From the NCBI GenBank assembly GCA_004296455.1, contig AP018280.1, positions 5,084,001 to 5,148,000 of the forward strand: a DNA stretch of 64,000 bases. Direction: 5' to 3'. The position numbers and the translations under genes are program-made. Below, piece by piece: positions 37,445 to 49,352 of this stretch. The notes below the pieces were generated by a model that saw only the letters and a list, made by a program, of their open reading frames with translations, was not told where the DNA came from and searched no databases. This DNA comes from Calothrix sp. NIES-4101. Lineage in GTDB: Bacteria; Cyanobacteriota; Cyanobacteriia; Cyanobacteriales; Nostocaceae. The first letter of the stretch is position 1, and every line of letters begins with the position of its first letter.

Positions 37445-38323
37445 GTGAAGGCGAGGAAAATTAAATTGTTGAATGCATTCAAGGGAACTGCGAAAAAAGC
37501 GGTCAGACTAAAACGCTTTCTGCCAATCAGCGACAAAACCTGGGCAAAATTTGATTTATTGAGAACTCTCGTACGACGGGACTTAGAAGCGCGTTACAAA
37601 GGTTCTGTCTTAGGAAATCTTTGGCCTCTACTCAATCAATTAGCCCAACTACTAATTTATACTTACGTTTTTTCGGTTGTACTCAAAGTAAAGTTATCCC
37701 TAAAAGGTTTGCCTGAAAATAACTTTACCTTTGGCTTATGGTTATTTGCTGGACTTCTACCTTGGATTGCATTCAGTAATGGTTTAATTCAATCATCCAC
37801 CTCAATCGTTGGACAGCCCAACTTAGTTAAAAAAGTAGTCTTTCCTCTAGGGCTACTGCCACTTGTTCCAATTCTCTCAGCCTTTATCGAAAGTGCCTTT
37901 GGCTTAATCGTATTAATTATTTTTGTTGCCTTTACTTCCCACACCCTACACCCAACCTTGGCACTTTTACCCCTAATTTGGCTACCGCAACTACTATTAA
38001 CCGCAGGATTAGGTTACCTGGCAGCAGGATTTACTGTTTTTCTCCGGGATATCCCCCAAACAATTAGTGTATTATTAAATATTTGGATGTATGCTACCCC
38101 AATAATTTATCCAGCCTCAGCTATCCCCGAAGGGTGGCGAGATTGGGTATTCTGGTTAAATCCCTTAACTGCGATCGTTGAAGTCTACCGCGACTTAGTT
38201 ATCAATGGAGAGGTAACGCACTGGGGTGAATGGGGTGTCAGTTCCTTAATCGCCTTGGTAATTTTCTGTATTGGTTTGTGGTGTTATCGTCGTTTGCGCC
38301 CAGCTTTTGCAGATGTTCTGTAG
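37445..38323 (+). CDS. Polysaccharide ABC-2 exporter permease (Wzm type)
   Basis: This 292-residue inner-membrane permease has six predicted spans. The amphipathic N-terminal segment LLRTLVRRDLEARYKGSVLGNLWPLLNQL is the hallmark of the ABC-2 polysaccharide export family, with ANGxxP-like turns and NPLTAIVEVYRDLV near the C-terminus. With the ATP-binding protein downstream it would flip a completed lipid-linked glycan across the membrane. The listed start is GTG at 37445 with little ribosome-site support. It is the first intact gene of the polysaccharide locus. Confidence 0.9.
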   Translation: MKARKIKLLNAFKGTAKKAVRLKRFLPISDKTWAKFDLLRTLVRRDLEARYKGSVLGNLWPLLNQLAQLLIYTYVFSVVLKVKLSLKGLPENNFTFGLWLFAGLLPWIAFSNGLIQSSTSIVGQPNLVKKVVFPLGLLPLVPILSAFIESAFGLIVLIIFVAFTSHTLHPTLALLPLIWLPQLLLTAGLGYLAAGFTVFLRDIPQTISVLLNIWMYATPIIYPASAIPEGWRDWVFWLNPLTAIVEVYRDLVINGEVTHWGEWGVSSLIALVIFCIGLWCYRRLRPAFADVL

Positions 38324-38504
38324 TTTTGCAATACTCACAAAAACAAGGTGTTGAGATATGTAGCTTGGTTTAAGGAGATAATTCAGTTAAAAATCAGATG
38401 CTATATTTGATAATTATATTTAGTATATTCAGTTTTTTCTAGAGATAGTATTGTAGACTTTGTGTTTTAAAGTGTGTGAGAGTTTGAGGATTGATGGCGA
38501 AGGT

Positions 38505-39899
38505 ATGGGAGAAGAAATAGCAATTTCACTCAAGAATGTATCAAAATGCTTTAAGCGTTATAACCATCCAGTAGATAGGCTTCAGGAAATATTATTACCT
38601 GGTAAAAATAGAAGCGAGGAATTTTGGGCACTACGAGATATCGAGCTTGAGATTCCGCGAGGAGAAACAGTTGGAATTGTTGGACGTAATGGTTCGGGGA
38701 AAAGCACATTACTACAAATTATAGCAGGAACACTGACACCTACTACCGGGGAAGTAAAAGTAAATGGTCGAGTTTCAGCTTTATTAGAATTAGGCAGTGG
38801 TTTTAACCCAGAGTTTACTGGGCGGCAAAATGTATTTTTTAATGGGCGACTGTTAGGATTAAGTCAAAAAGAGATAGAAGACAAATTTGATGAAATCGCT
38901 TCATTTGCTGATATTGGTGACTTTATTGATGAGCCTGTTAAGACATATTCAAGCGGCATGTTTGTACGTTTAGCTTTTGCTGTCGCTATTAATGTTGATC
39001 CAGAAATTCTGATAGTTGATGAAGCTTTATCCGTTGGTGATGGCGTTTTTGTACATCGCTGTATGGCAAAAATCAAAGATTTTCAAGATTCTAACGGTAC
39101 AATTTTATTTGTTTCCCATGATCTTGGTTCGGTAAATCGCCTTTGTTCGAGTTGCTATTGGTTAAACAATTCTCGAATCGTCGAAAAAGGTAGTCCAGTA
39201 GATGTTAGTAAATCATATCAAGCATGGGTGTATGAAAAGATAAATGAAGGAATGAAAAAAAAATCAGATGCTGCCTGTAATTTTGTGATTAATGCAGAAA
39301 ATCTCACAACTTCACAATTAGAAGACAATTCCCAAAATAAAACATCAGAAGATTTAGGAATAAGTATAAATCCTTTTAATAACCAAAAATACCTTTATTT
39401 CCCTAGTACAAAAAGATTTGGCACCGGACGCTGTGAAATTCTAAGTTTAGAAATCCAGAATAATGAAGGAAAAAACACTGGGTTTGTTATGCCTGATGAC
39501 ACCTTAACAATCAAAACAAAAATTCTCAGTCATGATCAAGTTAAAAATCCACTCTTTGGCATTATGTTATATGACCGATTGAGAACTGCGATCGCCGGAT
39601 GGAATACGACTCAATACAAGCATAAATTATCTCAGTTTGAAAAAGGAGAAATTATTTGCGTGACTTTTGAAATCAAATGGCCACATATTAAAAGTGATAC
39701 TTATTCACTAGAGCCAGCGATCGCAGATGGAAGCCAAGACAGCCACGAAATGATTGATTGGGTACAAGCATCTATTGCCCTACAATCAGGAGTGACAGAT
39801 TTAACCTTTGGTTTTATTAGGTTTACTGATGTAACAGTTTCACATAGCGTTAATGTACCGGTACTGAACGAAGTATTAAGTAATACTTTATCAACATGA
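38505..39899 (+). CDS. Polysaccharide ABC exporter ATPase with carbohydrate-binding domain (Wzt type)
   Basis: I chose the ATG at 38505 (MGEEIAISLK); the longer frame starts with a TTG at 38460. The 464-residue protein has Walker A GRNGSGKS (60-67), signature YSSGMFVRLAFA and Walker B EILIVDEALSVGD. A C-terminal domain of about 180 residues (from about 285, FPSTKRFGTGRCEILSLEI) matches Wzt_C. In O9a-type systems Wzt_C binds the modified non-reducing end of the glycan, so export waits for chain capping. That C-terminal domain, followed by methyltransferase genes, points to a capped polymer (inference). Its stop overlaps the next start by four bases. Confidence 0.92.
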   Translation: MGEEIAISLKNVSKCFKRYNHPVDRLQEILLPGKNRSEEFWALRDIELEIPRGETVGIVGRNGSGKSTLLQIIAGTLTPTTGEVKVNGRVSALLELGSGFNPEFTGRQNVFFNGRLLGLSQKEIEDKFDEIASFADIGDFIDEPVKTYSSGMFVRLAFAVAINVDPEILIVDEALSVGDGVFVHRCMAKIKDFQDSNGTILFVSHDLGSVNRLCSSCYWLNNSRIVEKGSPVDVSKSYQAWVYEKINEGMKKKSDAACNFVINAENLTTSQLEDNSQNKTSEDLGISINPFNNQKYLYFPSTKRFGTGRCEILSLEIQNNEGKNTGFVMPDDTLTIKTKILSHDQVKNPLFGIMLYDRLRTAIAGWNTTQYKHKLSQFEKGEIICVTFEIKWPHIKSDTYSLEPAIADGSQDSHEMIDWVQASIALQSGVTDLTFGFIRFTDVTVSHSVNVPVLNEVLSNTLST

Positions 39900-40576
39900 T
39901 GATTTGTAATTGTTGCGGTTCCACTCATTTTCAACATCAAGATGTTCTTTGGGAAGAATTGATAGTTGAATGGAGGATATCAAATTATGAAGTTGACTAT
40001 ATTAATCAACAACAAGGTTACCATTGTCAAAATTGCCACTCGAATTTGCGTTCAAACGTATTAGCTTTGTCAATTATGAGAAGCTACAGTTATCAAGGAT
40101 TATTTCAAGATTTTGTAAAAGAGAAAAAAAAACAAGATTTACAAGTATTAGAAGTTAACGAGGCTGGCAGCTTAACACAATTTTTGAGGCAAATGCCAGG
40201 TCATCAGTTAAAGATGTACCCGGAAGTAGATATGATGAATATGAGTTTTGCAGATATGACTTTTGATTTAGTTGTTCATTCAGATGTTTTAGAACATATA
40301 AAGTATCCAATTAGAGCGTTATCCGAGTGTTACAGAATTTTGAAGCCAGGAGGATATTGTGCTTTTACAGTGCCAATGATTATTGAACGATTAACAAACT
40401 CAAGGCAAGGTATGCCGCCTAGCTATCATGGTTCGGGAGATAACAAAGAGGATTACTTAGTTTATACAGAATATGGTAGTGATGCTTGGAAGCAAGTAAT
40501 ACAAGCAGGATTTCAAGAATGCCGAATTTTTTCGATTAATTATCCTGCGGCTCAGGCATTAGTAGCAGTAAAGTAA
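39896..40576 (+). CDS. SAM-dependent methyltransferase with N-terminal Cys cluster
   Basis: This 226-residue protein overlaps the Wzt stop by four bases, so it is translationally coupled. The N-terminus has MICNCCGS and CQNCHSN, a likely zinc ribbon seen in polysaccharide-locus methyltransferases. The Rossmann part shows FDLVVHSDVLEHIKYPIRALSECYRILKPGG, the motif II/III region of class I methyltransferases. The glycine-rich motif I is degenerate (VLEVNEAGSL), so activity is uncertain. It would act on a sugar or the glycan end. Confidence 0.75.
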   Translation: MMICNCCGSTHFQHQDVLWEELIVEWRISNYEVDYINQQQGYHCQNCHSNLRSNVLALSIMRSYSYQGLFQDFVKEKKKQDLQVLEVNEAGSLTQFLRQMPGHQLKMYPEVDMMNMSFADMTFDLVVHSDVLEHIKYPIRALSECYRILKPGGYCAFTVPMIIERLTNSRQGMPPSYHGSGDNKEDYLVYTEYGSDAWKQVIQAGFQECRIFSINYPAAQALVAVK

Positions 40577-40600
40577 TATCAACAAACCATCTTGGAAAGT

Positions 40601-41587
40601 ATGGAATTTACAGGCGAAAGATATATCCCTTCAGTTGGCGGGAAAATCAAGTACGAACATTTACACCGTTATGCGATATGTTTAGACTTTGTTAGTCAGA
40701 AAGCTGTATTAGATATAGCTTCAGGTGAAGGGTACGGTTCCGCTTTGTTAGCCAATGTTGCCGCATCAGTTATTGGGGTTGATATTGATAGTGAATCCAT
40801 TGACTATGCGAAAGCACAATATGCTAATCATCATAATTTACAATTTCTCGTTGGCTCTTGTGAATCCATTCCATTGCCAGATAAGTCAGTAGATGTAGTT
40901 ACATCTTTTGAGACACTGGAGCATCATAATCATCACGAAGAAATGATGCAAGAAATTAAAAGAGTCTTAAAACCTGATGGAATATTAATTATTTCTTCTC
41001 CAAATAAATTAGCTTATTCTGATGAAGCAAATTATTCCAATCCATTTCATGTCAAAGAATTATATTACGAAGAATTAGTTGACTTGTTAAGCAGATATTT
41101 TAATCATAATAAGTTTTATGGCCAAAAAATGACATCTAGCTCATTTTTGCTGCCATTAATAAAAACAGAAGCAATAAGTCTTACAGCGTTTACAGGAAGT
41201 GACAATTATGTGGAAAAAAGAATTTGTAGCTCTCAATCACCAGACTATTTTATTGTTGTATGTTCTGATGTAGCTGATGCAGTAAAGCCTTGTCTTACTT
41301 CTTTATATGTAGATGATTCCGAAGATTTATTCAAAACTTTTGAAATGGGCTGGATTCATGAAGGAGAAAAGTCACGGAATTATCTATTACAGCAACAGAA
41401 AACTCAGCTTGAATTAGAAAAAAAAGAGCAGCAACTGCATGATACTTTAGCGGAGTCTCAGAAAAAAACTTATCAATATCAGAAAGAGTTGGGATATTTA
41501 AGAGAAAAAATAGTAGAGATGGAGAATAGCAAATTTTGGAAGTTAAGAGAAATCTGGTTTTCATTTCAGAGAATAATGAAAAAATAG
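40601..41587 (+). CDS. SAM-dependent methyltransferase with C-terminal coiled coil
   Basis: The ATG at 40601 (MEFTGERYIPSVGGK) is preferred over a TTG at 40592. The 328-residue protein has motif I VLDIASGEGYGSALLA, acidic motif VIGVDIDSESIDYA and SFETLEHHNHHEEMMQEIKRVLKPDG. After the methyltransferase domain, a coiled coil (about 260-305, QQKTQLELEKKEQQLHDTL) leads to a basic-aromatic tail ENSKFWKLREIW. The same tail ends the GT2 protein starting at 42653. This architecture recalls WbdD, the O-antigen capping enzyme whose coiled coil sets chain length, although the kinase domain of WbdD is absent. Confidence 0.85.
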   Translation: MEFTGERYIPSVGGKIKYEHLHRYAICLDFVSQKAVLDIASGEGYGSALLANVAASVIGVDIDSESIDYAKAQYANHHNLQFLVGSCESIPLPDKSVDVVTSFETLEHHNHHEEMMQEIKRVLKPDGILIISSPNKLAYSDEANYSNPFHVKELYYEELVDLLSRYFNHNKFYGQKMTSSSFLLPLIKTEAISLTAFTGSDNYVEKRICSSQSPDYFIVVCSDVADAVKPCLTSLYVDDSEDLFKTFEMGWIHEGEKSRNYLLQQQKTQLELEKKEQQLHDTLAESQKKTYQYQKELGYLREKIVEMENSKFWKLREIWFSFQRIMKK

Positions 41588-41680
41588 TGGAATATAAATA
41601 ATTTATCAAAAGTACATTTCAATAATTACCTTATCAGTAATAATTTTGCATATTTTAGGAGAAAAGCTAGGAATATTGGA

Positions 41681-42616
41681 ATGCAAAGTATCACACATGT
41701 AAGATTATTTATCACAAATTTAGGCAATCATTTTATGATTGAGATTGCTAATATATTTGCTGAGGGCTTTATAAATAACTCTATTTCAGTAGAAATTTTA
41801 GCTGATGAATTGCCATCTGATTGTTGTGAAGAAAATATCATCCAGATTATTGTAGCTCCTCATGAATTTTATCCTTTGTTCCTAGAAAAAAAATGTTCAT
41901 CATCAGATGAAATATTAAAATTTACTACACAATGTTATTTATTAAATGTTGAACAACCTGGTAGCCCTTGGTTTGAAATTGCATTTGCATACTCTCAATA
42001 TGCTAAAGGTGTGTTTGATATTAACCAACAAGGTATAGATGAATTTAATCAGCGTAATATTAATGCTATCCACCTACCCTTAGGTTACGCCTCTTTTCTT
42101 GAGACAAAGGAAAGCTTGGAAAAACAATCAAAAAAAGTAGATATTTTATTTTTAGGAACAAATTCCCCAAAGCGAGACTTGTTTTTATCAAAAAACTCAG
42201 ATTTTTTAAATAAATATAATTGCCGACTCATTATTGTCAGACTTGATCAGCCAAGATTGTTGACAACGCCTGGATTTTATGCTGATGAAGAACGTAATTC
42301 TTTAATAAGTTCTAGTAAAATTATACTTAATATTCATTTTGCTGATAGAACATATTTTGAATGGCATAGGGCATTAATAGCAATGGCAAATCATTGTTTA
42401 TTTATTTCTGAAAACAGCGATTATATTTACCCCTTGACTAACCGAGAACATATGGTAGTCACTGATCTAAATAATATAATATTTGAATGCGAGTATTATC
42501 TTCAGCATGAAACAGAAAGAAGAAAAATAGTTCAGCAAGCTTATGAGTTTGTCACAAAAAATTGGAATTCTAAAATCATTTGCAAATTACTTTTAGATAA
42601 ACTTAAAGTAAACTAA
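41681..42616 (+). CDS. Probable glycosyltransferase-like protein (GT-B, CgeB-like)
   Basis: This 311-residue protein is not firmly recognised. It has VDILFLGTNSPKRDLFLSKN, a GT-B C-terminal domain start, then SSKIILNIHFADRTYFEWHRALIAMANHCLFISE and HMVVTDLNNIIFECEYYLQH. This is the layout of the CgeB/YkvP-like glycosyltransferase C-terminal domain, where a name like Glyco_trans_1_2 is often given. The N-terminal half is divergent. AT content is high. The position between methyltransferase and GT2 genes supports a glycan role. AGGAGAAAAG (41657-41666) is a possible but distant ribosome site. Confidence 0.6.
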   Translation: MQSITHVRLFITNLGNHFMIEIANIFAEGFINNSISVEILADELPSDCCEENIIQIIVAPHEFYPLFLEKKCSSSDEILKFTTQCYLLNVEQPGSPWFEIAFAYSQYAKGVFDINQQGIDEFNQRNINAIHLPLGYASFLETKESLEKQSKKVDILFLGTNSPKRDLFLSKNSDFLNKYNCRLIIVRLDQPRLLTTPGFYADEERNSLISSSKIILNIHFADRTYFEWHRALIAMANHCLFISENSDYIYPLTNREHMVVTDLNNIIFECEYYLQHETERRKIVQQAYEFVTKNWNSKIICKLLLDKLKVN

Positions 42617-42652
42617 ATTAATACATTTTTGGAGAGAAGAGATTGTAACCTG

Positions 42653-43807
42653 ATGGAAGATTTTGACTTTGTTGTGAAAAAAAATTTCATGCTCACCAAA
42701 TTAGAAATGTCAAAAATGTGTGAGCATTTAGGTAAACAAGCATGGGAAATAGTTCCTAATTCTGCATATGAAAGATGTTTTAATTCAAGCATCTCTATTA
42801 TTATTTCTCTTTATAATTACTCCAGATATATATATGAATGCCTAGATAGTGTTTGCGCCTCTCAAATCAATAATATCCCTGGAGGTATTGAAATTATCGT
42901 TGTTGATGATTGCTCTAATGATAGTTCTTTTAATTTAGTTTATGAGTATCTTAAAGAAAAATCTAATATCCCCATCTGTTTGGTTAAAAAAGTTTTTAAT
43001 ACAGGTTTGGCAGATACAAGAAATGTTGGTCTGAACATTGCACGTTCACCTTATATATTTATTTTGGATGCGGATAATTGGATATATCCAAATTGCTTAT
43101 CTATTCTTTTTGAAGAAATAAATTCGTCATCTTATGCATCTGTTTATGGCATTATCAATAAATTCGACAACCAAACAAAAGAATATATAGGGTTGATTTC
43201 TCAATGGGAATGGGATGTAAGTGAGCTAGTTCGAGGTCCCTATATTGATGCAATGGCGATGTTCAATAGGGATGCGGTTATAAAGGTTGGTGGTTATTCA
43301 ACAGAATTAATGGCTATTGGTTGGAGTGGTTGGGAAGATTATGATCTATGGTTAAAGCTAGCACAAGCTAATTACTCGTGTAAGTTGGTTCCTCAAATTT
43401 TAAGTGCTTACAGAGTTCATTCCCAGTCAATGATAAATATTACAAACCAGTATGTAGTACCATTAGCAAAGCACTTTACTAAAAAGTTCTCGAGTCTGCT
43501 TAATAAATATTCTGATCTTGATACCGTTTTTGGATTATCTCGTAGTGGCTTGCTTCACATAAATAATCAACCTATCCCTACTCACCAATCTACTGATTTA
43601 GTTGAGAAAGTTCAGCTAAATCAAACTCAAGCAGAATTAGCGCAAACCCACTCACAATTACAGCAAACTCAAGCAGAATTAGCGCAAACCCACTCACAAT
43701 TACAGCAAACTCAATCCAAAATTGTGGCGATTGAAAACAGTAAATTATGGAAAATTAGAAAAGTTTTGGTCTTTATAGAGACAAATCTTCGGATTGGAAA
43801 AATTTAG
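42653..43807 (+). CDS. Glycosyltransferase family 2 with C-terminal coiled coil
   Basis: The ATG at 42653 (MEDFDFVVKK) is chosen; GGAGAGAAGAG lies 12 bases upstream. The 384-residue protein has the GT2 core SIIISLYNYSRYIYECLDSV, EIIVVDDCSND, NTGLADTRNVGL and the DxD-like ILDADNW, with WEDYDLWLKLA on the acceptor side. A Gln/Thr-rich coiled coil (about 322-355) contains two exact copies of QTQAELAQTHSQLQ and ends in the tail ENSKLWKIRKVL, matching the tail of the upstream methyltransferase. The 42-bp repeat behind the coiled coil is identical at DNA level. Confidence 0.87.
   Translation: MEDFDFVVKKNFMLTKLEMSKMCEHLGKQAWEIVPNSAYERCFNSSISIIISLYNYSRYIYECLDSVCASQINNIPGGIEIIVVDDCSNDSSFNLVYEYLKEKSNIPICLVKKVFNTGLADTRNVGLNIARSPYIFILDADNWIYPNCLSILFEEINSSSYASVYGIINKFDNQTKEYIGLISQWEWDVSELVRGPYIDAMAMFNRDAVIKVGGYSTELMAIGWSGWEDYDLWLKLAQANYSCKLVPQILSAYRVHSQSMINITNQYVVPLAKHFTKKFSSLLNKYSDLDTVFGLSRSGLLHINNQPIPTHQSTDLVEKVQLNQTQAELAQTHSQLQQTQAELAQTHSQLQQTQSKIVAIENSKLWKIRKVLVFIETNLRIGKI
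43622..43705. repeat. Perfect 42-bp tandem duplication in the GT2 coiled coil
   Basis: Two identical 42-bp units (43622-43663 and 43664-43705) encode 14 residues each, two heptads of a coiled coil. A third partial unit (CAAACTCAA) follows. Being a multiple of three and of seven residues, copy-number change would lengthen or shorten the coiled coil without breaking frame or heptad phase. Confidence 0.95.
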
Positions 43808-43903: not shown

Positions 43904-45184
43904 ATGAATGCACAAATAAATCAAATATTACAACTTGTAAAAACGAAATTTTTTAAGCCTATTAAAAATCAAATTAAATCAATTTTGTTCAAGACTAATA
44001 GATATACAATTAATACTACTTCAGATAGTATTAACTTAAAGTCTAGTATACCTGTTACAAAACCCACAAAAAAAGTGATGATGCTGTTGTGGCCTTTCAT
44101 TGCAGTAGGTGGAGCAGAAAATCTCACTTTAAGTATACTTAAAGAACCTCGAATTCTGAGCAAGTTCGATTACATCAATGTTTGCTTACTAGAACCATCA
44201 GATTCTCTTGGAGATTTATCACCAGCTTTTGAAGAGATATCTTGCGCTTTTTACAAAGCTGAGAACTTTCAAGATACAAGATATATTAACGCTTATATTG
44301 AATATCTCTTAGAATATTACAAAGTAGATGTTCTTTTTATCCCTAATGGCACTACAGTCTTCTACGATTCAGTCCAAGTAATTAAGGAGAAGTTTCCATC
44401 ATTGAGGATTGTCAATCAAGTCTATGACCATGAAGAAGGATGGATAAGACACTACGATATCTCAAAAGCAGCCGCCATCGACTTTCATGTTGCTCCCAAT
44501 TTGCAGATTCGGGAAAAATATATGAGCTATCAAGTTCCTAGTAACAGAGCGCCTTTAATATATCATGGCATTGATTTAGAAGTCTACAACCCCGATAAAT
44601 TATTATCGGCAAATTTAACAGCTATAAAACACAAATTAGAACTGCCAGAAAACAAAATAATTATTACTTTTGCTGCTAGAATTCATCCACAAAAGAGACC
44701 AATGGATTTTGTGGAAATAGCCAAACAGTTTTCTCCTGATAGTAGATTTCATTTTCTAATGGTAGGAGATGGTGAGATGGCTGCAAAAGTGCAATTAGAA
44801 ATTGACTCCATGAAAATTTCTAACATCACTAAATTAGGTTTTTATAAACCTATTCAAGATATTTATCTATGTACAGACATTTTAGTAGTCACATCAGAGT
44901 ATGAAGGGCTTCCATTAGTTGTACTTCAATCATCATCTATGGGAATTCCAATTGTTTCAACTTCTGTTGGTGCAATTCCTGATGTTATTAAAAATAATGA
45001 AAATGGGTTTCTCGTAAATCAAATTGGAGACTTAGATTTATTTAATTACTACATCCAAAAATTAGCTAATAATCTTGAAGACTTTAAGTCTAGAAGTAAA
45101 AGTAACTATATAGAATTGTCTCATCGTTTTAGTTTAGAGAAAATGTGCGAGAGTTATTTAGAAGTATTTGAAGGTAAACTATGA
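43904..45184 (+). CDS. Glycosyltransferase family 4 (GT-B)
   Basis: This 426-residue GT4 protein has a basic N-terminal segment (about 1-50) and then KVMMLLWPFIAVGGAENLTL. The donor domain starts IIITFAARIHPQKRP, and EYEGLPLVVLQSSSMGIPIV is the E-x7-E-like signature. The second glutamate position reads Gln (LQSSS rather than LEA), a substitution also found in some active GT4 enzymes. It shares a four-base ATGA overlap with the next GT2 gene, indicating an operon. Donor and acceptor are unknown. Confidence 0.85.
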   Translation: MNAQINQILQLVKTKFFKPIKNQIKSILFKTNRYTINTTSDSINLKSSIPVTKPTKKVMMLLWPFIAVGGAENLTLSILKEPRILSKFDYINVCLLEPSDSLGDLSPAFEEISCAFYKAENFQDTRYINAYIEYLLEYYKVDVLFIPNGTTVFYDSVQVIKEKFPSLRIVNQVYDHEEGWIRHYDISKAAAIDFHVAPNLQIREKYMSYQVPSNRAPLIYHGIDLEVYNPDKLLSANLTAIKHKLELPENKIIITFAARIHPQKRPMDFVEIAKQFSPDSRFHFLMVGDGEMAAKVQLEIDSMKISNITKLGFYKPIQDIYLCTDILVVTSEYEGLPLVVLQSSSMGIPIVSTSVGAIPDVIKNNENGFLVNQIGDLDLFNYYIQKLANNLEDFKSRSKSNYIELSHRFSLEKMCESYLEVFEGKL

Positions 45185-46254
45185 ATCCAAAAGTTTCAAT
45201 TATTATTCCTTCATACAACCACAGTAAATATATTATACAAACACTTAATAGCGTTTGTAATCAAACATATGAAAACCTAGAAATAATAGTTATAGATGAC
45301 GGTTCTTCCGATGATTCTGCCAAGCTTATCTCTGAATTTTCAGACCCCAGACTATTGTTCATACAACAAAATAATCAGGGGGCACATGCAACTATTAATC
45401 GCGGATTATCAATGGCATCTGGTGACTATATCGCCATATTAAATTCTGATGATCTGTATATGAAAAATAGAATACAGACATGTTTAAATATAGCTACAAA
45501 CATAAATAAAGATTCAATGATTACTTCCTATATAGAAGTTGTTGATTCTAACGGACAAGCATTAGGGATAAAAGAAGGGTACAAGAATATGTTTCCCTAT
45601 CAACCTCTTTATCCAGAGAAAACTTTTATTACAACTGATGATCCAATTAAGAATTTATTAATGTTTAACTATATAGCAACAACCTCTAACTTTTTTTGTC
45701 ACAAGTCAATAATAGATAAAATAGGTGAGTTTTCTCCTTTAAGATATGTTCATGATTGGGATTATTTCTTACGTATTGCTGAATATTTTCCTATACATAT
45801 TATTAATCAACCATTATTACAATATAGAGTTCATCAAAACAACACAATAAGTGAAAATAAGTCAAGAATGATATTAGAAATATGCTGGACAATTGCAAGA
45901 AATCATCAAAATATAGTTAAGAGTTTGACTAGCAATATGGAATCTGAGCAAGAACAGTTTGATTTTTTCTATCAACTTTTCTATTCTCTTGAGGCTTTCA
46001 ATTGTGAGAAACTTCTTCTTACCTTGATATTTATGTTTAATTCTAGCCAGTCATTATCATTCGCAATGGATGATATGTTAGATCCTCAACATCCACTTCA
46101 TTATCAATTTTCTATGGAGATTGAAAATCAAGTAATGCAAAAAGAAAATGGTAAATTTAAATCAAGTAATACAGGTAATATAAATGATAAATTTAATCTT
46201 TTAGTTTCTTTGATGAAGAAACTAAAAATTTTCAAACAAGGAACGAATAATTAA
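45181..46254 (+). CDS. Glycosyltransferase family 2
   Basis: This 357-residue GT-A enzyme has VSIIIPSYNHSKYIIQTLNSVCNQ, IIVIDDGSSDDSAKLI, NQGAHATINRGL, a DxD-type LNSDDLY and VHDWDYFLRIAEYFP near the acceptor side. The C-terminal about 120 residues are not recognised. It is translationally coupled to the GT4 gene upstream. Codon use is strongly AT-biased, as in its neighbours. Confidence 0.87.
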   Translation: MNPKVSIIIPSYNHSKYIIQTLNSVCNQTYENLEIIVIDDGSSDDSAKLISEFSDPRLLFIQQNNQGAHATINRGLSMASGDYIAILNSDDLYMKNRIQTCLNIATNINKDSMITSYIEVVDSNGQALGIKEGYKNMFPYQPLYPEKTFITTDDPIKNLLMFNYIATTSNFFCHKSIIDKIGEFSPLRYVHDWDYFLRIAEYFPIHIINQPLLQYRVHQNNTISENKSRMILEICWTIARNHQNIVKSLTSNMESEQEQFDFFYQLFYSLEAFNCEKLLLTLIFMFNSSQSLSFAMDDMLDPQHPLHYQFSMEIENQVMQKENGKFKSSNTGNINDKFNLLVSLMKKLKIFKQGTNN

Positions 46255-46315: not shown

Positions 46316-47521
46316 ATGAATCCTCTGTTTTCAGTAATTATACCCACATACAATAGGTTATCTATCTTGAAAGAGACCTTGCACATGTATGAGATGCAAG
46401 AGAATTTGGATTTTGAATTTGAAATTATTTTAGTAGATGATGGCTCGACTGATGATACATACAAATTTTTATCAGAATATAAATCATCGTTCTTTCCTTT
46501 ATTTGTTTATCATCAATCGAATCAAGGACCAGCACAAGCCAGAAATTTAGGCATTTCTCAGGCTAAAGGAAAATATTTACTTATCACTGGAGACGATATT
46601 GTACCTAGTACCAACTTTTTAGCTGAACATTATAAAGCTCACCAAGATAGTTCATCAAATGACGTTGCAGTATTAGGTAAAACTGTTTGGCATCCGAACT
46701 TAAATATTAACTCTGTAATGAAACATATAGATGGAATAGGAGCACAACAATTTAGCTATTACTATTTGAAAAATAGAATGAAGCTTGACTTTCGTCATTT
46801 TTATACATCAAACATCTCTATCTTACGTTCTGAATTGACAAAAATTGATAAATTATTCGACACAGATTTTTATTATGCAGCATATGAGGATGTTGAATTT
46901 TCTTATCGTTTAATGGGAACTAAGAGTAATATTATTTATTATGAAGATATTATTGCTTATCACCATCACGAGTACAACCTACATAGTTTTTGTCAAAGAC
47001 AGCGCCGTGCGGGTAGAATGGCTTGTGTTTTCAAAAATAAACATCCTGAAATTGCTGAAAAAATAGGCTTTGCAGATTTAAACCGTTTACTTGAATGTAC
47101 TAATACAAAATCGACCCCTCTTTCCACACATTTATTGGAAGAATGGGAAAGTTTTATTGTTCAGTTATTTGAGAAATATACTTACCATTCCCATGAATGG
47201 CTTGATGATGTGTATCTAGGGATTTTTAGATATTTTTATTTTAAAGGCATTATTGAAGATACTTATAACGAACAGAAAGCTAATTGTTTATTACCTAATT
47301 TAATTTTTGCTTGTCTTTCTCAGGTTATCCAAAAATTGATTAGTAATGAGAGTACTAGTTTCTCTTCAAATGACTTACTCTTTCTTAATCAAATATTACA
47401 TGATTCTTCCAAATATTCAAATGCCTTTCAAGTAGCCAAATATACTAAAATTAAGTCGGGCTTAAAATTTATTAAACAAATAATTAAATCTGTATACTTT
47501 AAGTTGTTATACTCTAAATAG
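46316..47521 (+). CDS. Glycosyltransferase family 2
   Basis: This 401-residue GT-A enzyme has FSVIIPTYNRLSILKETLHMY, EIILVDDGSTDDTYKFL, NQGPAQARNLGISQAKGKY, an ITGDDIVP DxD equivalent and AYEDVEFSYRLMG, a common GT2 acceptor-side motif. The C-terminal helical part (from about 275) is unassigned. It follows the previous GT2 by 61 bp. The gene is AT-rich and lies within the stretch without HIP1 sites. Confidence 0.87.
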   Translation: MNPLFSVIIPTYNRLSILKETLHMYEMQENLDFEFEIILVDDGSTDDTYKFLSEYKSSFFPLFVYHQSNQGPAQARNLGISQAKGKYLLITGDDIVPSTNFLAEHYKAHQDSSSNDVAVLGKTVWHPNLNINSVMKHIDGIGAQQFSYYYLKNRMKLDFRHFYTSNISILRSELTKIDKLFDTDFYYAAYEDVEFSYRLMGTKSNIIYYEDIIAYHHHEYNLHSFCQRQRRAGRMACVFKNKHPEIAEKIGFADLNRLLECTNTKSTPLSTHLLEEWESFIVQLFEKYTYHSHEWLDDVYLGIFRYFYFKGIIEDTYNEQKANCLLPNLIFACLSQVIQKLISNESTSFSSNDLLFLNQILHDSSKYSNAFQVAKYTKIKSGLKFIKQIIKSVYFKLLYSK

Positions 47522-47624: not shown

Positions 47625-48566
47625 GTGGTACTTCGAGTTTTGATAGTTGGAGGAAGTGGTTTTATTGGTTCGCAACTTGCTAATTTTTTAAGTGCCCAAG
47701 GGCAGTCTGTTAAAATTTACAGTCGAACTTGTAAGACATGTACTGATAAATTAAGTGGTATTGAATACTTATATGGGGATTTTTCAAATCAATATCTATT
47801 AAAAAAAGCTTTAAAGAATATTGATGTTGTATATCAAATGGTTAGTACAACTATACCTAGCACATCTAATCAAAATCCTGTGGAGGATGTTGCAGATAAT
47901 GTCATTAACATGATTAGCTTCTTACAATATTGTGTTGATGCATCAGTAAAAAAGGTCATTTTTCCATCATCTGGTGGTACTATTTACGGTATTCCTCAAC
48001 ATATACCTATTCCTGAAACCCATCCAACAGAACCTATTTCTTCTTATGGTATTACTAAACTTACTATAGAAAAATATTTGTTTCTATTTCATCATCTTTA
48101 TGGTCTTGATTATACTATTTTGCGTATTGCTAATCCATATGGTTACGGTCAAAATCCAACCAGAAAAGTAGGAGCCATTACTATATTTCTTGACTTAATC
48201 ATGAGGAATTTACCAATCAGAATTTGGGGTAATGGGGAAATAATTAGAGATTATGTTTATATTTCTGATGTTTCTCGGGCACTATATGCTGCTCAAGCAA
48301 CAGATATAGAACAAAAAATATTTAATATTGGTAGTGGAGTAGGTACATCACTCATTGAATTAATAGAGTATTTTAAAGAATACATACCTCAGAAAAGCTT
48401 TGAAGTTCAATATATTGATAGTCGTACATTTGACGTACCTATTAATATTCTTGATATTAGTAACGCAAATCAAGTATTAAACTGGCAACCAACTATTTCA
48501 CTTCAAAAGGGCATCAAACTAACATGGGAGTGGTTAAAATTATGGCATTCTCAAAATCAAAAATAA
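47625..48566 (+). CDS. NAD-dependent sugar epimerase/dehydratase
   Basis: This 313-residue extended short-chain dehydrogenase has the nucleotide motif LIVGGSGFIGSQLAN, catalytic Ser-Ser in FPSSGGTIYG, Tyr-x-x-x-Lys in SSYGITKLTIEKY and the RIANPYGYGQNP segment. This is the UDP-glucose 4-epimerase-like group. It would supply a nucleotide sugar to the neighbouring transferases; the exact sugar is not determined. The start is GTG at 47625. Confidence 0.87.
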   Translation: MVLRVLIVGGSGFIGSQLANFLSAQGQSVKIYSRTCKTCTDKLSGIEYLYGDFSNQYLLKKALKNIDVVYQMVSTTIPSTSNQNPVEDVADNVINMISFLQYCVDASVKKVIFPSSGGTIYGIPQHIPIPETHPTEPISSYGITKLTIEKYLFLFHHLYGLDYTILRIANPYGYGQNPTRKVGAITIFLDLIMRNLPIRIWGNGEIIRDYVYISDVSRALYAAQATDIEQKIFNIGSGVGTSLIELIEYFKEYIPQKSFEVQYIDSRTFDVPINILDISNANQVLNWQPTISLQKGIKLTWEWLKLWHSQNQK

Positions 48567-48806: not shown

Positions 48807-49352
48807 ATGAATGTGAATCCGAGCTTAATTTCAGATGTATTATTGATCGAACCCCAAATCTTCCAAGACGATCGCGGTTTTTTCTTTGAATCTTATAATC
48901 AGCAGAAATTTATCGAAAAAACTGCTTTAAATCTCAATTTTGTCCAAGATAATCAATCACTATCTAAGCAAAATGTGCTGCGGGGACTCCATTACCAAAT
49001 TATTCAACCCCAGGGGAAATTAGTACGTGCGGTATCTGGGAATATCTTCGATGTCGCAGTTGATATTCGTCAAAGTTCCCCAACTTTTGGGCAATGGGTA
49101 GGTTACGAACTCAGTGCTGAAAACAAGCGCCAACTTTGGATACCAGCAGGTTTTGCCCACGGTTTTGTTGTCCTTTCAGAAGTCGCCGAAGTTCTCTACA
49201 AAACTACAGATTATTATGCACCATCAGGCGATCGCACTATCCTTTGGAATGACACAGACTTGGCTATCGATTGGCAATTAACTACAGACCCAATTTTATC
49301 ACCAAAAGATCAAGCTGGAAAAGCTTTTAAAGATGCCGATTTGTTTCCATAA
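48807..49352 (+). CDS. rfbC: dTDP-4-dehydrorhamnose 3,5-epimerase
   Basis: This 181-residue cupin-fold enzyme epimerises dTDP-4-keto-6-deoxyglucose at C3 and C5. It has DDRGFFFESYNQQKF, FVQDNQSLSKQNVLRGLHYQ with the catalytic His, QGKLVRAVSGNIFDVAVDIR, and WIPAGFAHGFVVLS. It feeds the RfbD reductase encoded at 25.1 kb. It marks the return of HIP1-like sites and less AT-rich codons after the polysaccharide island. The start is ATG. Confidence 0.95.
   Translation: MNVNPSLISDVLLIEPQIFQDDRGFFFESYNQQKFIEKTALNLNFVQDNQSLSKQNVLRGLHYQIIQPQGKLVRAVSGNIFDVAVDIRQSSPTFGQWVGYELSAENKRQLWIPAGFAHGFVVLSEVAEVLYKTTDYYAPSGDRTILWNDTDLAIDWQLTTDPILSPKDQAGKAFKDADLFP

Follow-up and report, generated by a model that had tools for sequence, protein, structure and literature searches.

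Why would two enzymes of unrelated families, encoded in one polysaccharide locus, end in the same coiled coil and the same basic tail? The question is raised by a 64,000-nucleotide stretch of DNA from Calothrix sp. NIES-4101 (assembly GCA_004296455.1, contig AP018280.1, positions 5,084,001 to 5,148,000 of the forward strand; called the window below), where a methyltransferase (MT) and a GT2-type glycosyltransferase (GT2) carry this ending close to a Wzm/Wzt-type ATP-binding cassette (ABC) exporter. An earlier note on this DNA had suggested a chain-length ruler comparable to WbdD, in which the two coils might pair with each other or with the membrane. The best reading of the present analysis is a WbdD-like, kinase-free (O8-type) coiled-coil ruler acting on an ABC-exported polysaccharide, which we consider moderately probable and which includes the assumption that the locus makes a polysaccharide that would be exported by Wzm/Wzt.

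A coil and tail shared by unrelated enzymes

The MT gene (open reading frame (ORF) 40592–41587, ATG at 40601; positions are those of the window and all features described lie on the plus strand) encodes an S-adenosylmethionine (SAM) methyltransferase with a PF08241 match at residues 40–134 (E = 1e-25), which passes into a coiled coil (41339–41521, about 58 residues by a composition-based estimator) and the tail ENSKFWKLREIWFSFQRIMKK (41522–41584), so that the protein terminates in ...EMENSKFWKLREIWFSFQRIMKK. The GT2 gene (ORF 42629–43807, ATG at 42653; PF00535, E = 2.6e-26) likewise encodes a coil followed by the tail ENSKLWKIRKVLVFIETNLRIGKI (43733–43804) and its product terminates in ...AIENSKLWKIRKVLVFIETNLRIGKI. 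The motif itself begins at 41522 in the MT (ENSKFWKLR) and at 43733 in the GT2 (ENSKLWKIR). A degenerate DNA pattern for the strict motif had exactly two matches in the 7.59-Mb genome, which were the MT and GT2 tails, and none when the pattern was read backwards; a looser pattern had three. Both tails were also recovered among 1,220 ORFs (E = 3.4e-8 and 1.3e-5) by a tail hidden Markov model (HMM) built without them. In single-sequence AlphaFold2 models, coil and tail formed one continuous helix (MT residues 243–330, GT2 residues 322–389), with block-mean predicted local distance difference test (pLDDT) values of 89–96 over MT residues 271–330 and 72–90 over GT2 residues 331–390; outside the helix the confidence was low, and the catalytic domains of MT and GT2 were not reliably modelled. 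The ORFs, the genome-unique strict matches, the tail HMM and the helix models confirm that both proteins end in a coil and ENSK-x-WK-x-R, as the earlier note had stated, and their unrelated Pfam families bear out its statement that the two enzymes are unrelated. Among the Pfam and NCBIfam matches listed, none was specific to the post-coil motif. The tails are basic, with a median net charge of +5.

The tail is a recurrent cyanobacterial module. The looser DNA pattern had matches in 78 of 99 genomes of the family, many of them by chance, and 40 regions around selected matches were read and translated; the consensus tail, positioned after the coil, is I-x-A-M-E-S-S-K-F-W-K-L-R-x-x-W-F-x-x-K. It is often present on two or three ORFs per locus, with up to three tailed proteins in loci such as L034, L039 and L043, and is sometimes internal, between the coil and glycosyltransferase modules: among 75 tail proteins from the window, the 40 regions and 20 further ones, it was C-terminal in 62 and internal in 13. 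A Pfam scan of 53 tail proteins returned Methyltransf_11 in 24, Glycos_transf_2 in 21 and Glycos_transf_1 in nine, and in a phylum-wide sample the tail was matched in 52 of 244 genomes. Chance matches do occur: of 70 scanned regions, 14 lacked a tail ORF, and among the 56 that contained one, at least L065 appears to be a chance match.

Some tail proteins depart from the common types. In protein L042:6355–11115 from a family genome, a sulfotransferase domain precedes the coil and tail, which are followed by two Glycos_transf_1 stretches and a GT2 domain, and L145:12534–13568 from a metagenome-assembled genome of Oscillatoria princeps has a sulfotransferase domain before the coil and tail; by their domain content, both are candidate sulfate chain terminators. 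Protein L039:9847–12435, with GT2 and Glycos_transf_1 domains, has two consecutive tails near its C-terminus, and two small ORFs (L044:9672–10013, 113 residues; L045:9885–10280, 131 residues) end in coil and tail within stretches free of a Wzm match.

Orthologs of the window enzymes were searched in 192 family genomes using the catalytic parts only as queries, so that the coil and tail could not drive the search. The matches, including the window's own, numbered 13 for MT and 21 for GT2, and the tail was present in all 13 MT orthologs and in all 20 GT2 orthologs read (window included in both), with the variant SKFWLLR in the GT2 ortholog of L254. The surroundings were read for 11 of the 13 MT orthologs, the window included. 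Nine of them (window, L085, L040, L256–L258, L260, L261 and L262) have the order Wzt-MTa-MT, where MTa, assigned by Pfam match and gene order, is a small methyltransferase without tail (39896–40576 in the window; PF08241, E = 2.8e-13); L262 has one extra ORF inside this order and L040 an extra ORF between Wzm and Wzt. The other two, L259 and L263, have the MT directly after Wzt with no MTa between them. The MT orthogroup (13 genomes) and the GT2 orthogroup (21 genomes) coincide only in the window's own genome, and therefore the MT-GT2 coil pair of the window is not conserved. Elsewhere the MT adjoins other glycosyltransferases (L085, L040) and the GT2 adjoins another methyltransferase type (L035 and others); these different partners give the window the appearance of a mosaic of enzymes with tails.

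Upstream of the MT, the window encodes a Wzm-type ABC permease (37445–38323; ABC2_membrane, PF01061, E = 5e-26) and a Wzt ATPase (38460–39899; PF00005), residues 317–454 of which match Wzt_C (PF14524, E = 6.3e-25). Its score of 88.3 bits exceeds the PF14524 cut-off of 30.4, and the exporter ATPase thus has the C-terminal glycan-binding domain ascribed to it before, as in known Wzt proteins of this kind. The best PDB sequence matches of this Wzt, to ABC transporter and TagH/TarH chains, covered the ATPase part.

The association of the tail with such exporters extends beyond the window. When 40 family genomes were searched with tail model A1, built with the two window tails included, 24 of them yielded 42 matches in all, grouped into 31 clusters; 20 of these clusters (30 matches) were located within 20 kb of one of 105 Wzt_C matches, with 0.59 clusters expected by chance and 20 reached in none of 20,000 simulations. 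Among 150 of 170 Wzx matches listed, none lay within 20 kb of any of the 31 clusters, which is an absence rather than a proven avoidance, because only 0.83 clusters would be expected by chance. The pattern that would have spoken against the earlier note, a tail common outside loci for ABC-exported polysaccharides, was not found. A tail was present within 20 kb of 18 of the 25 best Wzt_C matches, of three of the next 20 and of none of the remaining 60. Of the 11 clusters without Wzt_C within 20 kb, four (L076, L077, L079 and L080) lie with Wzm and a Wzt of the short type, the tail thus also accompanying short-Wzt exporters; the same exporter genes are present in L078, but there the tail match falls in a 39-residue frame. 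L073, L074, L075 and L083 have neither Wzm nor a strong Wzt match in the stretch, L044 has no Wzm match, and L081 contains neither a tail ORF nor an exporter.

Likeness to WbdD and to fused terminator-polymerase enzymes

The sequence following the coil is EKIHRSRSWRMTKGYRYLG in the O9 WbdD of E. coli HS, LHNSRSWRITQPLRWLS in the E. coli O8 methyltransferase and SRSWMITKPYRYFG in a protein of the E. coli O99 cluster. S-x-x-W thus stands just behind the coil in all three WbdD-type proteins, the next residue being R, R and M, respectively, with M in the O99 protein replacing the K/R that follows W. These proteins were read for other reasons and not picked by the motif, which was directly post-coil in each. 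The comparison with WbdD made in the earlier note is supported by this finding: the cyanobacterial and WbdD post-coil segments have a similar motif in the same place, and common descent of the two forms appears likely from the sequences, although not proven.

The window MT resembles E. coli WbdD in having an N-terminal methyltransferase, then a coil, then a segment with a similar S-x-x-W-[KR] motif, and in the location of its gene beside Wzm and a long Wzt. It differs in the distance from the motif S to the protein end, which is 19 residues versus 117 in O9 WbdD, and in its partner glycosyltransferase, since the window GT2 has a tail of its own, unlike in the WbdD/WbdA system. No kinase family was present among the Pfam matches (E up to 0.001) of ten scanned locus ORFs, in agreement with the earlier note, but its conclusion that this would be a different version of the system does not follow: PMC3482155 describes O8 WbdD itself as a simple methyltransferase, and the lack of a kinase therefore does not set the window system apart. 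In this respect the locus is like O8 WbdD and unlike the O9/O9a methyltransferase-kinase.

Outside cyanobacteria, plasmids of Shinella, Marivivens, Paraburkholderia, E. coli, Citrobacter and Enterobacter encode coiled-coil proteins next to Wzt in which S/T-x-S-W-[KR] follows the coil. The post-coil motif was present in 11 of 19 named non-cyanobacterial loci (L093, L124–L141), nine times by pattern and twice by eye (the O99-type protein of L124 and the end of a 995-residue protein in L134), and none was seen in the other eight (L126–L131, L133, L137), among which L127 encodes a Wzt no longer than 246 residues. Matches to the pattern that lacked a coil (L128, L131, L134) and one in a small opposite-strand ORF of L137 were set aside as chance. 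The 995-residue Azospirillum protein (L134:16306–19293, annotated as a glycosyltransferase) has NSPFWRLRG near its end, a form intermediate between the cyanobacterial and proteobacterial motifs. An HMM of nine proteobacterial sequences matched 11 of 80 other Wzt loci at E < 0.01, including those of Firmicutes, Proteobacteria and an actinobacterium, and had no match on reversed sequences. In this cross-phylum sample a strict regular expression matched 7 of 36 loci with a long Wzt and none of 10 with a short one, 34 loci being without a Wzt class. Two non-cyanobacterial proteins with a coil and S-x-S-W-[KR]-I-T have other N-terminal parts, namely a pyruvyltransferase domain (L212:5702–7093, E 3.2e-17) and a weak APH-kinase match below the cut-off (L147:12345–13985, E 0.0049), and are, judged by these matches, candidate terminators of other chemistry.

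A further parallel is provided by fused orthologs. The window MT ortholog of L262 is a single protein with the order MT-coil-tail-GT2-Glycos_transf_1, and the same order is present in L079. This is the domain layout of Klebsiella O7 ORF6 and O12 WbbB, which PMC11231755 describes as terminator-coil-polymerase enzymes, with orthologs of O7 ORF6 reported in cyanobacteria; the window MT and GT2 are separate polypeptides, unlike these fused enzymes. According to the same source, coiled-coil ruler terminators are widespread in ABC transporter-mediated glycan assembly, and their role as rulers of ABC-exported glycans is already established. No description of the post-coil motif, of the motif on polymerase glycosyltransferases or of repeat-built coils was recognised in the open-licence literature searched, which is weak evidence of novelty.

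Coil lengths and repeats

MT coil length could be measured in 10 of 13 orthologs, the other three lacking the anchor pattern, and spanned 43 to 223 residues. The corresponding GT2 spacing was 42–44 residues in 17 of 20 orthologs, the others being L254 (53), the window (74) and L236 (136), and the GT2 linkers of the window and L236 contain 14-residue repeats. In the window these units are encoded by a 42-bp tandem repeat (43622–43714, 2.2 copies, 100% match), one unit corresponding to two heptads. DNA arrays upstream of the tail were found in 32 of 75 tail genes, some of them merely about 60% alike, and the best period was a multiple of 21 bp in 26 of the 32. Strict heptad steps in the MT coil were rejected overall, because the anchor-to-tail lengths of the 10 orthologs fall into classes 1, 5 and 6 modulo 7, and of the 45 differences between pairs 14 are divisible by 7; the close pair L225/L226 differs by exactly 14 residues.

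The two enzyme classes were compared in 17 loci with both a tailed MT and a tailed glycosyltransferase. The coil-length estimator used for this purpose, which consists of composition rules, passed through four versions, each altered after failures of the previous one, and the last alone is used as evidence: with version four, which introduced gap tolerance, the MT coil was the longer one in every locus but the window (16 of 17), while version three had given 12 loci with the longer coil on the MT and five on the glycosyltransferase. The 17 loci are not independent, since many are orthologous. The class labels were taken from phmmer, and L077:5185–6219, labelled a glycosyltransferase, is a methyltransferase by Pfam; its L074 ortholog is probably mislabelled as well, and both are outside the 17 loci but inside the glycosyltransferase median.

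A ruler reading and its rivals

On the preferred reading, the tailed MT would terminate chains in the manner of the kinase-free O8 WbdD; a coiled coil would carry its catalytic domain at the distal end and the S-K-x-W-K-x-R tail at the base. The tail would hold this base at the membrane and/or the polymerase, with membrane lipid, Wzm/Wzt, a glycosyltransferase or another tail as candidate partners, and the GT2, a polymerase component on this reading, would be tethered there by its own copy of the tail. The chain would grow until its end reaches the MT and would then be methylated, after which recognition of the methylated end by Wzt_C would lead to export, so that capped chains would be selected and the coil length would set the minimum chain length. 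Changes in the coil length of WbdD reportedly shift O-antigen length (PMC5082667, PMC6286764). Because the window MT coil is short, the ruler model predicts short chains in this strain. What the analysis itself established is the coil-tail module, its association with ABC exporters, the similar motif at the corresponding place in WbdD, the fused orthologs and the variable MT coil; capping, ruler function, tethering and a polymerase role of the GT2 are inferred.

Several results weigh against this reading. The cyanobacterial tail HMM had no match to WbdD; the proteobacterial HMM scored the window GT2 no better than E = 0.43, and ORFs without a tail had similar scores; and none of 36 PDB sequences matched by the window MT was named WbdD. 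A comparison of the cyanobacterial and non-cyanobacterial profiles does speak for the reading, the two matching over the S-x-x-W-[KR] core (Prob 88, E 2.9e-6; score 21.6 versus a maximum of 15.9 in 200 column shuffles), but this is partly circular, because both sets were picked by the S-x-x-W-[KR] pattern or by a profile trained on it. In the cross-phylum sample the HMM motif showed no significant dependence on Wzt length (9 of 55 long, 2 of 24 short, p = 0.49, one locus without class), and some cyanobacterial tail clusters had no exporter in the stretch read. The window MT coil, of about 58 residues, is shorter than that of WbdD, reported as approximately 200 Å, and the two window coils are short and nearly equal (58 residues for MT, 59 for GT2 by the estimator), the MT coil being no longer than that of the GT2. 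The usual order is reversed in L255 (MT 64, GT2 124) and, by eye, in L145, with a short coil on the sulfotransferase protein and a long one on the GT2. Six orthologous MT loci (L256–L259, L261 and L263) have only one tail protein by the tail HMM, a count in which a tail too divergent for the model could be missed. Finally, a classical amphipathic helix was not supported for the tail and is not claimed, because the hydrophobic moments (100 degrees) of 70 tails did not exceed those of shuffles: the shuffle fraction had a median of 0.46 and was never below 0.05, with 0.07 for the window MT and 0.25 for the window GT2.

The strongest rival, which we nevertheless hold to be unlikely, takes the tail as a general tether gathering polysaccharide enzymes at the ABC exporter or the membrane, the coils being oligomerisation spacers that set no length. 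It would readily accommodate the tail on methyltransferases, GT2, Glycos_transf_1 and sulfotransferase-containing proteins, the loci with up to three tailed proteins and the occurrence of the tail with short Wzt lacking the glycan-binding domain, but is opposed by methyltransferase coils that are longer and more variable than those of the glycosyltransferases, and by the similar place of the motif in WbdD, where changes of coil length reportedly shift chain length. Modification of internal sugars by the MT, with Wzt_C reading something else and the coil being structural, appears improbable: the MT is a generic SAM methyltransferase with no PDB match named WbdD, none of its 25 listed NCBIfam matches passes the cut-off of the model, and the tailless MTa adjoins it, but its position after Wzt is conserved and its fusion to coil-tail-glycosyltransferase modules reproduces the layout of known terminators (PMC11231755). 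The heteromeric ruler of paired MT and GT2 coils suggested by the earlier note is very improbable: coil and tail on both window enzymes, the 17 loci with a tailed MT and a tailed glycosyltransferase and the tail on all 20 GT2 orthologs read would suit it, and such pairing is possible in the window, but it is not general in these loci because six orthologous MT loci show a single tail protein, and it further conflicts with coil lengths that mostly differ widely within one locus and with orthogroups sharing only the window's genome.

A wider and tentative proposal can be made, although we lean against all of its parts holding together: (a) the post-coil S-x-x-W-[KR] would be a common base element of coiled-coil terminators and polymerases for ABC-exported glycans in several phyla; (b) it would serve as a docking tag that is interchangeable, allowing enzymes of different origin to be swapped between loci; and (c) the cyanobacterial ruler would be built of 42-bp repeats, whose gain or loss would change the chain length in two-heptad steps. 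Most of what is known about length control of ABC-exported polysaccharides comes from a few enterobacterial systems, and a short ruler-base motif would offer a handle for finding terminators of unknown chemistry; the candidates to which it points here are methyltransferases, two proteins with a sulfotransferase domain and, in a non-cyanobacterial locus, one with a pyruvyltransferase domain. With coils that are in many cases repeat-built and that span 43 to 223 residues on a single orthologous enzyme, nature would supply rulers of graded length on which the model could be tested directly.

The remaining genes of the locus include four glycosyltransferases without tail, one between MT and GT2 (41681–42616; Glyco_trans_1_2, PF13524, E = 8.4e-8) and three downstream (43904–45184, 45181–46254 and 46316–47521; ORF list and Pfam). 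Two further Wzt_C matches are present in the window's genome, at G000:C1:6442013 and, scoring under the curated cut-off, at G000:C1:1594747; neither has a tail match near it. The N-terminus of MTa has a CxxC...CxxC pattern, read by eye, and this protein may possibly catalyse a second methylation step. Sugar-nucleotide genes extend the locus to 49352: an NAD-dependent epimerase/dehydratase (47625–48566; PF01370, E = 9.3e-45) is followed by an ORF at 48807–49352 (ORF list), which encodes a putative RmlC-like protein.

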